From Catenulispora acidiphila DSM 44928 (GTDB lineage: Bacteria; Actinomycetota; Actinomycetes; Streptomycetales; Catenulisporaceae), in contig NC_013131.1 in NCBI RefSeq assembly GCF_000024025.1, positions 8,970,229 to 9,034,228 of the forward strand: a DNA stretch of 64,000 bases. Reading direction: 5' to 3'. Below, piece by piece: positions 54,347 through 59,486 of this stretch (position 1 is the stretch's first letter; the number at the start of each line of letters is the position of its first letter). Position numbers and translations under genes: made by a program. The notes under the pieces were generated by a model, which was not told the DNA's origin, ran no database searches, and saw only the letters and a program-made list of their open reading frames with translations.

Positions 54347-54380
54347 AAAAAACCCTCGGAGCCGGAAGGCTCAACGAGGG
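54347..54380 (-). terminator. ilvB attenuator terminator
   Basis: On the minus strand CCCTCG-tt-GAGCC-ttcc-GGCTC-CGAGGG is followed by TTTTTT. It lies between the leader ORF and ilvB, a classic premature terminator. Confidence 0.9.
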
Positions 54381-54381
54381 G

Positions 54382-54419
54382 AGGCGCGTGGCTGCTTTTG
54401 GAGGTCAGCCCACGCGCCT
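54382..54419 (-). promoter_or_regulatory. ilvB leader pause hairpin
   Basis: AGGCGCGTGGGCTG and CAGCCACGCGCCT pair over 13 bp with one bulged G, enclosing 11 nt. The 5' arm is the end of the leader ORF, so ribosome position would control this stem. Confidence 0.8.
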
Positions 54420-54452
54420 GGCAAGTACGAGAATCGACTGTCGTGTCGTCAT
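54405..54452 (-). CDS. ilvL: ilvB leader peptide
   Basis: A 15-residue ORF, MTTRQSILVLARRVG, preceded by AGGAGGAGGG. The Ile-Leu-Val-Leu run in the middle is the expected sensor for charged Ile, Val and Leu tRNAs. The sequence strongly resembles leader peptides reported for actinobacterial ilvBNC operons. Its stop is inside the pause hairpin, with the U-tract terminator downstream and ilvB 96 nt from its end. If charged tRNA is scarce, ribosome stalling at ILVL would free the downstream arm and prevent the terminator. Confidence 0.9.
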   Translation of the reverse strand: MTTRQSILVLARRVG

Positions 54453-54485: not shown

Positions 54486-56264
54486 TCAAGCATTGATCGG
54501 AGCGGTCTCGCCATGCGAAATGGCCCAGGTGGCCGCGAGCGGTTCGGCGACCACGCGGTTGCGCCCGGCGGTCTTGGCCCGGTACATCGCGGCGTCGGCG
54601 CGCCGCAGCAGGTTGGACGCCGAACCGCCGGGCTCGGAGAACGCCACGCCGATCGAGGCGCCGAGGTGGTGCGCCGGCCCTTCGATGCGGTACTCCTCAC
54701 ACAGCCGCCCGCGGATCCGCTCGGCGACCACCAGCGCGCCGCCGACGGTCGTGCCGACCTCGAGCACGATCACGAACTCGTCCCCGCCGAACCGGGCCAC
54801 GGTGTCCCCGACCCGCAGCGAGCCGGAGATCCGGCCCGCCGCCTCGACCAGGACCCGGTCGCCGGTCTCGTGGCCGACGGAGTCGTTGACCCCCTTGAAG
54901 CCGTCCAGGTCCAGGAAGATCACCGCGACCGGCTCCCATTCGGCCTGCCGCTGGGTCAGCGCGTGCTCCAGCCGGTCGGTGAGCAGCGCGCGGTTGGCCA
55001 GTCCGGTGAGCGGGTCGTGGTACGCGTGGTGCTGCAAAGTGGCGGCGGCGCGGCGCAGGTCCTCGGTCAGGCGCTGGTTCTCGAACAGCGTCAGCGCCTG
55101 CCGGGCGACCAGCGCGACCAGCACCGCGGCGCCGGCGATCAGCACCACCGGGTCCATGCGGCGCGCCGTGTCCAACCCGTCGGCCAGGACTCCGGCCAGG
55201 CAGAAGGCCGCAGCCAGATACGGCAGTATCCCCCGCACCGTCCGCAGCAACGAGCCCCAGCGGGACGGCGAGTCGATGAACCGCGTGCCGCCGGGGGCGG
55301 GGATGTCCGGCGCGGCGATGGTGAGCGCGACCTCGCGGCCGGTGGCGGCGTCGCAGTCGTGCAGCCCGATCGAGCAGCCGGCGCCGCAGGCGGAGTCCTG
55401 CCCGGCGCCGGACGCGTCGCGGCCGACGCGCTCGGGCCGCCAGCCGTCGCCGTACCAGGCGGCCACCGCGATGACCAGGTAGCCGGCGAACCAGCCGGTG
55501 TCCAACAGCCCGCCGGACCGGTAGCCGTTCCGGACCGCGGGCATGGTGAAGATGGAGTCGCAGACCACGATCATCAGGTAGCCGACCCGCACCCCGGTGC
55601 CGATCCCGCCGCGCTCCCCCGGCGTGCGGGCCCGCAGCGCCAGCAGCAGGCTGACCAGCGCCAGGTCGAAGGCCGGGTAGCCCAGGACCAGGAAGGTGCG
55701 CACCGGGGAGTCGACCCGCTCGATGGCCAGCGCCAGCGCGACCACCCAGGCCACCACGAACAGCGAGCCGGCCACCAGCGTGGTGTCCAGCAGCAGCCTG
55801 ATCCGCGCCGACAGGCTGACCTGCTCGCCGTGCGCGGTGACGAAGGCGGCCAGGGCCAGCGGCCCGAAGAACAGGAAGGACCAGTCCGCGGCCGACGGGC
55901 TCGGCGGGGCGACGTCCAGGACCAGTTCGTACCAGGCCCACACCGCGTTCCCGACGGCGGCGGCCAGGCAGGAGAGCCCGGCCAGCAGCCAGGAGTAGCA
56001 GCGGAAGCAGGCCATGCGGTAGTGGCGGACCATCAGGACCGTGCGATGCATGCACGCCGCGGACGCCAGGGCCGCCGCGGCGGCCAGACCGGCGTCGCCC
56101 ATCAGGGCCGGGACCGCGCCGGACGGGCCGACCAGGGACACCGAGGCGTGCGCGGCGATCAGCACGGCGACGGCCGTGTAGCCCGGCGGCACGCCGTGGA
56201 GGCGCGCCCCGGGCAGCCGCCGCATCTGAAGGGCCGGGATCGGCCCTCGCCTGTCCAGTCCCAT
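54486..56264 (-). CDS. Membrane diguanylate cyclase (GGDEF)
   Basis: 592 aa. Several TM helices cover about 30-260, then a ~60-residue Cys-containing loop and two more TM segments (YLAAAFCLAGVLADGL; VVLIAGAAVLVALVARQAL). The GGDEF domain at about 415-575 has DPLTGLANRALLTDRL, ARFGGDEFVIVLE and an RxxD inhibitory site (RVGD) five residues before GGDEF. It should make c-di-GMP and be product-inhibited. No EAL domain. Its stop is 33 nt from the ilvB leader start, so ilv transcription may partly read through it. Confidence 0.9.
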   Translation of the reverse strand: MGLDRRGPIPALQMRRLPGARLHGVPPGYTAVAVLIAAHASVSLVGPSGAVPALMGDAGLAAAAALASAACMHRTVLMVRHYRMACFRCYSWLLAGLSCLAAAVGNAVWAWYELVLDVAPPSPSAADWSFLFFGPLALAAFVTAHGEQVSLSARIRLLLDTTLVAGSLFVVAWVVALALAIERVDSPVRTFLVLGYPAFDLALVSLLLALRARTPGERGGIGTGVRVGYLMIVVCDSIFTMPAVRNGYRSGGLLDTGWFAGYLVIAVAAWYGDGWRPERVGRDASGAGQDSACGAGCSIGLHDCDAATGREVALTIAAPDIPAPGGTRFIDSPSRWGSLLRTVRGILPYLAAAFCLAGVLADGLDTARRMDPVVLIAGAAVLVALVARQALTLFENQRLTEDLRRAAATLQHHAYHDPLTGLANRALLTDRLEHALTQRQAEWEPVAVIFLDLDGFKGVNDSVGHETGDRVLVEAAGRISGSLRVGDTVARFGGDEFVIVLEVGTTVGGALVVAERIRGRLCEEYRIEGPAHHLGASIGVAFSEPGGSASNLLRRADAAMYRAKTAGRNRVVAEPLAATWAISHGETAPINA

Positions 56265-56426: not shown

Positions 56427-58025
56427 TCAGACCACTGTCTCACCCTTGGCAAGGAGCCCGAAGGTCACGGCGTCGACCAGTGCCTGCCAGGACGCGGTGA
56501 TGACATTCTCGTCCACGCCGACCGTGGACCATTCCGCCACGCCGTCGGAGGTGGTGATCAGCACCCTGGTCCGCGAGGCGGTGCCGTGGTCGCCGGTGAG
56601 GATCCGGACCTTGTAGTCCATCAGCTCCAGCCCCGCCAGCGCCGGATAGGCGGCGGCCAGCGCGGCGCGCAGCGCGTTGTCCAGCGCGTTGACCGGGCCG
56701 TTGCCCTCGCCGGCGGCGAGCACCTCCTCGCCCTTGACCCGCAGCTTCACCGTCGCCTGGTTGACCACCAGGCCGTCGGCCAGCCGGTCGGCGAAGGTCC
56801 GCCAGGACAGCACCTCGAAGAAGCGCACCGGCGCGCCGCCGAGCTCGCCGCGCAGCAGCAGCTCGAAGCTGGCGTCGGCGGCCTCGAAGGAGTAGCCCTG
56901 GGCCTCCAGCTCCTTGACCCGGTTGGTCACCCGGGCCAGCGTGTCGGGGTCGGCGGACAGGTCGAAGCCCAGCTCCCGGCCCTTGAGCTCGATCGAGGCC
57001 CGGCCGGCCATCTCCGAGACCAGCATCCGCATGTCGTTGCCGACCAGCTGCGGGTCGATGTGCTGGTACAGGTCCGGGTCGACACGGACCGCCGAGGCGT
57101 GCAGCCCGGCCTTGTGCGCGAAGGCCGAGACCCCGACGTAGGGCGCCTGCGGGTTCGGCGCGAGGTTGGTGACCTCGGCGACGGCGTGCGCGATCCGGGT
57201 CATCTCGGCCAGCCCGGCCGGCGGGATCACCTCCCGGCCCAGCTTGAGCTGCAGGTTGGCGACCACGCTGAACAGGTTCGCGTTGCCCGAGCGCTCGCCG
57301 TAGCCGTTGGCCGTGCCCTGCACGTGGGTGGCGCCGGCGTCGACCGCGGCCAGCGCGTTGGCCACCGCGCAGGCGGCGTCGTCGTGGGTGTGGATGCCGA
57401 TCCGGGTGCCGCTCGCCTCGCGCACCTCGTGCACGATGTCCGCGAGCTGCGTGGGCAGCATGCCGCCGTTGGTGTCGCAGAGCACGGCCACGTCGGCGCC
57501 GGCCTCGGCGGCGGTGCGCAGGCACTCCAGGGCGTAGGCGGGGTCGGCCAGGTAGCCGTCGAAGAAGTGCTCGGCGTCCAGGAACACCCGGCGGCCCTCG
57601 GCGTGCAGGTGCTCCACGGTGTCCCGGATCATCGCCAGGTTCTCCTCCAAGGTGGTCCGGAGCGCCAGGTCGACATGCCGGACATGGCTTTTGGCCACCA
57701 GCGTGACGATCGGCGCCCCGGACTCCCGCAGCGCGGCCACCAGCGGGTCGTCGGCGGCCTTCACGCCGGTCCGGCGGGTTTTGCCGAACGCGGCGAGCTG
57801 CGCGTGCTTCAGGTCGAGCTCTGTTTGAGCCCGCCGGAAGAACTCTGTGTCTTTCGGGACGGCGCCCGGCCAGCCGCCCTCGATGAAGCCGACGCCCAGG
57901 GCGTCCAGGTGCCGGGCGATCGCGAGCTTGTCGGCGACAGCGAGGGACAGGCCCTCCTGCTGGCTGCCGTCGCGCAGGGTGGTGTCGTAGATGTGAAAAG
58001 ACTCGTAGACGTCTTTCGCGGACAT
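56427..58025 (-). CDS. cimA: (R)-citramalate synthase CimA
   Basis: 532 aa from the ATG at 58025 (GAGGAG upstream). DTTLRDGSQQEGLSLAVADKLAIARHLD, the family start, is followed by FIEGGWPGA, GIHTHDDAACAVANALAAVDAGATHVQGTANGYGERSGNANL (metal His pair) and AHKAGLHASAV. GGWPGA rather than isopropylmalate-type motifs favours CimA over LeuA. It condenses pyruvate with acetyl-CoA in threonine-independent isoleucine synthesis. A C-terminal LeuA-dimer domain (from ~405) binds the feedback ligand. Confidence 0.93.
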   Translation of the reverse strand: MSAKDVYESFHIYDTTLRDGSQQEGLSLAVADKLAIARHLDALGVGFIEGGWPGAVPKDTEFFRRAQTELDLKHAQLAAFGKTRRTGVKAADDPLVAALRESGAPIVTLVAKSHVRHVDLALRTTLEENLAMIRDTVEHLHAEGRRVFLDAEHFFDGYLADPAYALECLRTAAEAGADVAVLCDTNGGMLPTQLADIVHEVREASGTRIGIHTHDDAACAVANALAAVDAGATHVQGTANGYGERSGNANLFSVVANLQLKLGREVIPPAGLAEMTRIAHAVAEVTNLAPNPQAPYVGVSAFAHKAGLHASAVRVDPDLYQHIDPQLVGNDMRMLVSEMAGRASIELKGRELGFDLSADPDTLARVTNRVKELEAQGYSFEAADASFELLLRGELGGAPVRFFEVLSWRTFADRLADGLVVNQATVKLRVKGEEVLAAGEGNGPVNALDNALRAALAAAYPALAGLELMDYKVRILTGDHGTASRTRVLITTSDGVAEWSTVGVDENVITASWQALVDAVTFGLLAKGETVV

Positions 58026-58045
58026 GCCCGGGACTCCTCGGCTGT

Positions 58046-58090
58046 GCAGGCTTGGGAAAAACAAAAATCCCCCCGTGGGAATCCACGAGA
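58046..58090 (-). terminator. Weak attenuator-like terminator before cimA
   Basis: On the minus strand CGTGG-attc-CCACG is followed by a G run and then ATTTTTGTTTTT. The stem is short, but the U-rich tract is the only one in the leader region. It lies between the leader ORF and cimA. Confidence 0.45.
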
Positions 58091-58119
58091 GGTCTGCGCG
58101 CTGGCGGTGGGCAGTGTGG

Positions 58120-58176
58120 TTATCGCTGCTCCGGTGCCGGCGCGCACGCCGTAATAATCTGCGGCTGCTGCTGCAT
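58120..58176 (-). CDS. Candidate cimA leader peptide with tandem Ile codons
   Basis: An 18-residue ORF, MQQQPQIITACAPAPEQR, with GGAG just upstream. Its isoleucine codons are ATT ATT, unusual in a genome that prefers ATC. It lies 95 nt before cimA, whose product starts isoleucine synthesis, with a U-rich sequence between. Attenuation by isoleucine supply is the obvious reading, but the hairpin is weak. Confidence 0.6.
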   Translation of the reverse strand: MQQQPQIITACAPAPEQR

Positions 58177-58223
58177 GGCTCCAACCCTGCCACATCCGGA
58201 AGCCGCTGGGACAGCGTGTCTCG

Positions 58224-59486
58224 TCATCCGGGATCGGGTACATCGCGCATGCGGCGCAGCGGCGAGAAGAACACCCAGGCCACGGCCGCATAGCTGCCGG
58301 CCACGGCGATCCACAGCGTGGGCCGCAGCCCGAGCCAGGTACCCACCAGACCGCCGAGCAGCGCGCCGAGCGGCATGGTGCCCCAGACGATGAAGCGAAC
58401 GCTGGCGTTCATCCGGCCGAGCAGCGCGTGCGGGGTGATCGCCTGCCGGTAGGACACCTGCGCGACGTTGTAGACGACCGCCATCATCCCGAAGAACGTC
58501 AGGCCGGCGGGGTAGAACAGGGCGCCCCACCCCGGCGTCGCCAACGGCGCCAGGAACGTCGGGAGCCCGAGCACCAGCGGCGCCAGCCAGATGATCCGCG
58601 CGCTGCCGAAGCGCTGCGCCAGCGGCCGCGCGACCAGGCCGCCGACCATCCCGCCGACCGCGGCCAGGCTGAGCACCGCGCCGACGCCGCTCGGCGTGAG
58701 GTGCAGCGTCCGGACCATGAAGGGGATCTCCACGGCCAGCAGCATCGAGCTGAACAGGTTGCTGGTGCCGGTGCACGCCACGACCTTGCGCAGGATCGGA
58801 TGCCGCACGACGAAGTGCAGCCCTTCCTTGATGCCGTCTCGGATCCTGCGTTCCTTGTGGCTGGGATGCGGCGGCGGTTCCGGCATCCGGATCAGCAGCA
58901 GCGACACCGCCGACAGGCCGTAGCTGGCGGCGTCGACGATCAGGGCCCGCGCCGCGCCGAGCGCCCCGACCAGCACTCCGCCGAGCGAGGGCCCGGCGAA
59001 CTGCGCGAAGGCCTGCGTGGTCCCGAGCTTGCCGTTGCCGTCGACCAGCTCGCCGCGCTCCAGCAGCACCGGCAGGTAGCTCTGGTAGGCGACGTCGAAG
59101 AACACGGTCAGCACACCGGCCGCCAGCGCGACGATCAGCAGATGGAGGTAGGTCAGGTGCAGGCCGGGCAGCGTGGCCAGCGGCACCGAGGCCATCAGCA
59201 GCAGCCGGCCCACATCGCACCACATCATCAGGCGGTGCTTGGCGGCGCGGTCGACCAGCGCGCCGGCCGGCAAGGCGACGAGCAGGAACGGGACCGTGCT
59301 CATCGCGGTCAGCAGCCCGACCTGGAAGGTGCTGGCATCCAGCAGCACCACCGCGGCCAGCGGCAGCGCCAGCACGGTGATCGCGCTGCCGATCTCGCTG
59401 ACCGACTGCCCGCCCCACAGGAGCAGGAAGTCGCGATGCCGCCACAAAGAACGGCGGGGCGCGGAGTCGGTCAGAGTGTCGGTCAC
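58224..59486 (-). CDS. MFS exporter (MFS_3 type)
   Basis: 420 aa with twelve TM segments. RRSLWRHRDFLLLWGGQSVSEIGSAITVLALPLAAVVLL is the start typical of the EntS/MFS_3 group, and LPAGALVDRAAKHRLMMWCDVGR is the conserved loop 2-3 motif. A central cytosolic loop (PEPPPHPSHKERRIRDG) splits the halves. Substrate unknown; its place among branched-chain genes might indicate amino-acid or antibiotic export. Confidence 0.88.
   Translation of the reverse strand: MTDTLTDSAPRRSLWRHRDFLLLWGGQSVSEIGSAITVLALPLAAVVLLDASTFQVGLLTAMSTVPFLLVALPAGALVDRAAKHRLMMWCDVGRLLLMASVPLATLPGLHLTYLHLLIVALAAGVLTVFFDVAYQSYLPVLLERGELVDGNGKLGTTQAFAQFAGPSLGGVLVGALGAARALIVDAASYGLSAVSLLLIRMPEPPPHPSHKERRIRDGIKEGLHFVVRHPILRKVVACTGTSNLFSSMLLAVEIPFMVRTLHLTPSGVGAVLSLAAVGGMVGGLVARPLAQRFGSARIIWLAPLVLGLPTFLAPLATPGWGALFYPAGLTFFGMMAVVYNVAQVSYRQAITPHALLGRMNASVRFIVWGTMPLGALLGGLVGTWLGLRPTLWIAVAGSYAAVAWVFFSPLRRMRDVPDPG

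Follow-up and report, generated by a model that had tools for sequence, protein, structure and literature searches.

A candidate isoleucine-responsive leader-peptide attenuator upstream of cimA in Catenulispora acidiphila and its relatives

The leader of ilvB1NC in Mycobacterium tuberculosis has been tested experimentally. In the sections of that report considered here, a uORF with BCAA codons precedes a Rho-independent terminator located 5' of the gene, a ribosome at the stop codon blocks the antiterminator, stalling frees it, and terminator and antiterminator are mutually exclusive (PMC13236596). Replacement of its LVVI codons by AAAA left ilvB1 expression low and inducer-independent (PMC13236596). 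The ilvBNC and ilvB-II leaders of Corynebacterium combine a short uORF, a transcription start adjoining the ATG and a stem next to the terminator; according to the parts of the two papers considered, either a GCC trinucleotide belongs to both antiterminator and terminator, or it is the P1 loop that pairs with the terminator (PMC11857589, PMC10272879). In Streptomyces, leaders of ilvB and leuS are described (PMC1262725, PMC8079986). Seliverstov 2005 gives elements for ilvB, leuS, leuA, trp, trpS, cys and ileS (PMC1262725), and eight leader peptides are reported for S. lividans, with cimA not among them in the portion of the paper considered (PMC8079986). For S. coelicolor ilvB, changes of the leader codons are cited as having no effect (PMC1262725), a result that counts against the attenuator reading proposed here for cimA.

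No report of a cimA attenuator was found in the literature searched, which did not extend to the 2010 survey by Lopatovskaya and co-workers that may list one. Neither “cimA” nor “citramalate” occurs in the main texts of PMC11109978, PMC8079986 and PMC8632094, and “cimA” is absent from those of PMC13236596 and PMC4833913.

The window, a stretch of 64,000 nucleotides from C. acidiphila DSM 44928, carries a cimA gene whose product scores 640 bits against TIGR00977 (cut-off 450). Genes for a transporter-like protein, ilvE and leuB lie on the same strand 5' of cimA, and those for a GGDEF protein and ilvB lie 3' of it (Table 1). The original prediction, made from the letters alone, had placed an 18-residue ORF with adjacent ATT ATT codons, and a U-rich tract behind it, directly before citramalate synthase. 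These features are all present, and the tract forms the tail of a terminator-like hairpin with 10 pairs, 7 of them GC (CCTCTCGTGGATTCCCACGGGGGG then ATTTTTGTTTTT). The preference for ATC that makes the ATT pair conspicuous also holds, with 79 ATC, 2 ATA and 1 ATT among the Ile codons of six minus-strand genes in the window. A terminator scan over 501 nt at the cimA leader returned two overlapping sites, compared with a mean of 0.2 in shuffles, and the 171-nt leader (58190–58020) folds at −76.5 kcal/mol (z = −3.9), a value equalled by 1 of 200 shuffles. Upstream of the terminator-like hairpin T:T', a second helix, A:A', is predicted, with one C-A mismatch in the window leader.

Table 1. Features of the cimA and ilvB leaders and neighbouring genes, in window positions.
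Feature	Position	Strand	Basis
Predicted leader promoter, −10-like hexamer CAGGGT	58184..58189	−	read from sequence
Leader ORF MQQQPQIITACAPAPEQR and stop, 18 residues, ATG 58176 to TAA 58120	58120..58176	−	sequence and relatives
Putative control codons ATT ATT, adjacent Ile, leader codons 7–8	58153..58158	−	conserved in leaders
Stem strand A (GCGCGCCGGC)	58136..58145	−	covarying helix A:A'
Stem strand A' (GCCAGCGCGC)	58096..58105	−	covarying helix A:A'
Terminator-like hairpin T:T'	58069..58092	−	terminator scan and conserved helix
T-tract TTTTTGTTTTT	58057..58067	−	sequence; retained in alignment A1
GAGGAG, probable cimA Shine-Dalgarno, 8 nt 5' of start	58034..58039	−	sequence
cimA, citramalate synthase, putative regulated gene, start 58025	56427..58025	−	NCBIfam TIGR00977
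GGDEF-domain protein gene, between cimA and ilvB	54486..56264	−	
Transporter-like gene, upstream of cimA leader	58224..59486	same as cimA	
ilvB leader ORF MTTRQSILVLARRVG and stop (known kind)	54405..54452	−	sequence
ilvB stem (54419–54410 with 54391–54382), abutting hairpin and T-tract	54347..54419	−	by eye

Actinobacterial ileS leaders of the T-box type also sense Ile supply, via tRNA (PMC1262725). A search of the whole window against Rfam 15, T-box and riboswitch families included, gave no match at gathering score, and the cimA leader itself drew just microRNA and CRISPR-repeat matches far under the cut-offs. T-boxes bind tRNA directly and have no leader peptide, unlike the cimA leader.

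The ribosome site that had been assigned to the leader ORF is doubtful. The sequence GGAG (58182–58179), on which it probably rested, lies just 2 nt from the leader ATG, the −10-like hexamer points to a probably near-leaderless mRNA, and GGAG may lie outside the transcript. Transcription of the cimA leader probably starts at or adjoining the ATG, from a promoter predicted 5' of the ORF rather than 3' of it. Of 44 relatives, 39 have a [TC]ANNNT element 4–10 nt 5' of the leader start (4.9 expected from shuffles; the 45th leader, L216, was left out as having no start), so most cimA-type leaders are probably near-leaderless mRNAs. Several S. lividans leader peptides are likewise reported to be near-leaderless (PMC8079986). 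A GAGATCNATGTGCC-like motif starting about 30–35 nt 5' of the −10 element was seen in L032–L035 and L039, and is possibly a candidate regulator site.

A search of the family (14 genomes, the window's own included) returned 14 strong cimA loci, and the leader is present at 12 of them, eight in the window's genus and four in two sister genera. All eight same-genus upstream regions that reach the leader retain the two Ile codons, and their peptides are nearly identical. The sister-genus leaders are short and divergent (e.g. MKTRSIITGSASA, MQTRRVITGGASA); one retains just VI, and all four conserve CAGACCTCTCG at the terminator start. The second cimA of one genome (G004, L016) has no leader within 400 nt upstream, at another locus (L009 of G010) the contig ends at the cimA gene, and G009 gave no cimA-like match better than 2.5e-9.

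For alignment A1, 32 of the 45 leaders considered were used, near-duplicates and unclear ones being excluded; its rows were chosen for having Ile codons, though the alignment and the model begin 3' of these codons. Over both helices, 95.6% of the cells are paired (96.6% for A:A', 94.7% for T:T'), as compared to at most 56.7% when the partner strand is slid. Double-sided changes occur at 11 of 21 pairs and amount to 58 cells, against 14.7 in shuffles; stem and terminator thus both covary. The covariance model R1 comprises only the stem and terminator, with no Ile codons inside. In the window's own genome it finds the cimA leader at 2.3e-14, and the following matches come at 0.19 and 0.65.

Across the class, cimA was detected at 1e-120 in 310 of 394 genomes. 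R1 matches at E ≤ 1e-8 occur in 222 of the 394 genomes and 91 of 138 genera, a figure that mixes cimA, ilvB and other leaders; among the 30 best matches, cimA lies downstream in every case. A presence cut-off of E ≤ 0.01 (269/394) was rejected as inflated, because 8 of 12 non-actinobacterial genomes also match at that level (best 2.1e-5). For a census we took 60 cimA genes from 59 of 112 genera (one per genus and one extra) with up to 500 nt upstream (just 236 nt for L190); they were drawn from the top-scoring cimA matches, so that low-scoring cimA genes are under-represented. R1 placed stem and terminator on the correct strand before 45 of the 60 (E ≤ 3.4e-11), and 3 of the 32 rows used to train it fall inside the 60 census regions. 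Alignment A2 of the 72 matches supplied these 45, the first ones at full length and on the cimA strand, the other 27 being antisense.

The element was not found by R1 in 15 of the 60 upstream regions (five of family f26, six of family f19, L191, L206, L212 and L231), 13 of which were inspected by eye, L191 and L203 excepted. In the five f26 cases the end of ilvE reaches the start of cimA, which is thus probably part of an operon. Three f19 upstream regions (L211, L220, L222) are without a leader and have in common the stretch GGCGGYGAACCCG...CGTCGCGCG. R1 also matches at least 39 genomes of genus g4, a sister genus in the order that is presumably Streptomyces, at E ≤ 1e-8. Among five g4 cimA leaders inspected, ATTATT occurs in four and ATTATC in the fifth; the cimA of S. 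coelicolor is, we assume, SCO5529. A cimA of the Nitriliruptorales (L079) is preceded by a mini-ORF with Ile-Ile-Ile about 160–120 nt 5' of the gene; the terminator scan was negative there, and this leader perhaps has a different read-out.

In each of the 45 elements found by R1, one or more Ile codons of an in-frame mini-ORF stand immediately 5' of the stem. The run is II or III in 38 leaders and a single Ile in seven, and 5–9 nt separate the last Ile codon from A. Where the run is a single Ile, it lies 8–9 nt before A in six of the seven leaders, a position usually held by the first of two Ile codons. ATT accounts for 54% of the leader Ile codons (51 ATT, 43 ATC), as compared to 1.9% in 38 cimA genes (580 ATC, 11 ATT, 3 ATA). 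The leader stop codon lies 2–5 nt 5' of A in 25 leaders and 10–16 nt past the start of A in 20, with none in between; in the window leader it is placed farther 3', within the A:A' loop. Comparison of the relatives shows conservation of the ORF, of the Ile codons with their register, and of the stem and terminator-like hairpin together with the 0–1 nt spacer between them, and this supports the reading of the original prediction as an Ile-sensing leader.

We consider it highly probable that the cimA leader is a ribosome-mediated, Ile-responsive transcription attenuator. The Ile response and the direction of the switch would be as follows. Transcription would start at or adjoining the leader ATG, and the ORF would be translated as the RNA is made. 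With Ile scarce, the ribosome would stall at the first Ile codon and leave the stem free, A:A' would pair and, by abutting T:T', would presumably prevent its completion inside the RNA polymerase, so that cimA is transcribed. With Ile plentiful, the ribosome would reach the stop codon and occupy A or the loop; A:A' could then not form, T:T' would form, and transcription would terminate 5' of cimA. In the window leader, a ribosome at the stop codon within the loop should likewise hold the stem open. On this scheme, cimA is probably switched on only when Ile is short. The step by which A:A' blocks T:T' through abutting it is put forward tentatively, as somewhat short of an even chance.

Folding of the 45 leaders with a ribosome masking 10 nt ahead of its A-site codon gave a mean A:A' pairing of 0.79 for a ribosome placed on the first Ile codon, 0.40 for one on the last Ile codon and 0.01 for one on the stop codon, compared with 0.92 in free RNA. 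The values of 0.79 and 0.01 indicate that a stall at the first Ile would free the stem and that a ribosome at the stop would block it. T:T' is predicted in every ribosome state (mean 0.91–0.92), the values for L207 (0.0) and L183 (0.27) reflecting a different or misaligned terminator. Since T:T' is unchanged by ribosome position, nested folding contains no switch, and the proposed switch rests on geometry: A' and T are separated by 0 nt in 42 of the 45 relatives and by 1 nt in three. Pairing of A' with bases 3' of the U-tract, which appeared in stalled folds, was set aside because these bases lie beyond the release point.

The leader is close to the systems described above. The M. tuberculosis ilvB1 attenuator is described with such a geometry (PMC13236596), which serves as a precedent. 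The cimA leader has in common with M. tuberculosis ilvB1NC the uORF with BCAA codons, the proposed roles of stalling and of the stop-codon ribosome, and the terminator 5' of the gene, but it precedes a different gene, its control codons are Ile only instead of LVVI, and it is known from sequence. Mutually exclusive hairpins, as presented for ilvB1NC in the sections considered (PMC13236596), are not apparent from base pairing at cimA. With the Corynebacterium leaders it has in common the short uORF, the predicted transcription start and the adjacent stem, whereas A:A' and T:T' have no bases in common and loop–terminator complementarity is found in a minority only. One observation from C. glutamicum ilvBNC counts against our reading: loss of the leader start codon lowered expression by 80% (PMC11857589), while A:A' as sole antiterminator predicts read-through of an untranslated leader.

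Several other explanations have to be weighed against an Ile-responsive attenuator. The transporter-like gene runs in the direction of cimA, and its end lies 131 nt 5' of the hairpin, which could then be a mere terminator of that gene, with the mini-ORF incidental. This we regard as scarcely credible, given that the Ile codons of all 45 leaders keep to a narrow register, that a −10-like element lies 5' of the mini-ORF, and that in 5 of 23 cases, one of them weak, the leader element occurs although a composition heuristic puts the best-coding upstream ORF on the other strand. It is also very improbable, if slightly less so, that the leader senses not Ile but general translation stress or drugs that stall ribosomes. 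Actinobacterial uORFs with a stress role are known from whiB7 (mentioned in PMC13236596), but here the amino acids encoded in the run match the pathway of the gene behind it, as seen for the cimA, ilvB and leuS leaders.

The remaining alternatives concern how the leader would act on the terminator. In the textbook design of strand exchange, the A:A' loop (or A') would pair with T' or T upon stalling and dissolve the terminator, and a pairing of the P1 loop with the terminator's right shoulder has been proposed for ilvB-II of C. ulcerans (PMC10272879). Loop–T' helices of at least six pairs are in fact found in 14 of the 45 leaders (6.0 expected) and of at least seven pairs in six (2.3 expected). 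In six leaders of family f18 (L221, L196, L202, L229, L204, L228) the loop motif GGACCC[CT] is complementary to GGGGTCT in T', the 3' arm, and in Kribbella (L041) CCCGCA faces TGCGGG. On average over the 45 leaders, however, loop and A' pair with T or T' no better than in shuffles (3.5 vs 4.1 and 5.07 vs 5.13 pairs), a loop–T helix of six pairs occurs in none, and loops of 4–6 nt in nine leaders leave little room for exchange. Nested folds retain T:T', though such folds cannot reveal a pseudoknot. We therefore judge strand exchange unlikely as the general mechanism; in the f18 group, where the loop–T' match resembles the C. ulcerans proposal, it may act through a pseudoknot-type antiterminator. 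Alternatively, A:A' could mainly be a pause hairpin that synchronizes ribosome and polymerase, with direct contact between the two deciding termination. A:A' is strong in free RNA and would sit right behind the polymerase as T is made, and secondary-structure prediction finds T:T' compatible with it. This explanation leaves the 0–1 nt spacing in all 45 leaders unaccounted for, and we think it rather improbable.

If the Ile-responsive attenuator is correct, the first enzyme of the citramalate route would be under Ile-specific control across much of the class, g4 included. The leaders would further offer dozens of natural scaffold variants of constant spacing, including single-Ile forms and codon swaps, for testing ribosome position against termination in Actinobacteria, and they could bear on the reported null effect of the S. 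coelicolor ilvB codon changes.

Although built on cimA leaders, R1 also matches leaders of ilvB and leuS, if more weakly. Their codon runs are ILVL, LVVL and LVV before ilvB and LLL before leuS, the genes being recognised from translations. A phylum scan with R1 gave matches in 26 of 198 at 1e-6, and we inspected 16 regions, 15 of them outside the class (of 18 outside-class places listed). Eight precede ilvB, one leuS and one leuB (with VVII), two stand before a distant gene of the LeuA/CimA family with Leu codons, one ends before any gene, and three (L236, L238, L241) do not fit the pattern of codon run and gene. The scaffold therefore appears common to cimA, ilvB and leuS leaders, and probably to leuA leaders, judging from the sequences. 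Within the literature searched, the suggestion that the cimA leader may be new stands as regards the gene and the Ile-only codon run, neither of which was met there among actinobacterial leader-peptide attenuators; the design, in contrast, is not peculiar to cimA, being found at ilvB, leuS and probably leuA. One might go further and see in all these leaders a single modular attenuator of the Actinomycetota that works with no strand exchange, its flush stem acting as a wedge inside the RNA polymerase, gated by the ribosome at a swappable codon run. We offer this generalization as a speculative and on balance doubtful one.

Two genomes of one genus with no cimA at 1e-120 (L232, L233) have the element before ilvB, near 270–370, with the peptide endings VVP and VIP ahead of the stop, which would represent a codon swap to Val on a cimA-type scaffold. 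In other classes of the phylum (L234, L243, L240, L247), the scaffold, carrying Leu or Val-Val-Ile-Ile codons, was seen before leuA-like, leuS and leuB genes. The R1 search of the window's own genome did not report the ilvB leader that lies in the window. Its peptide MTTRQSILVLARRVG resembles the known IlvL of S. lividans (MRTRILVLGKRVG), and this leader, with a stem abutted by a hairpin and T-tract, is a sister of the cimA leader.
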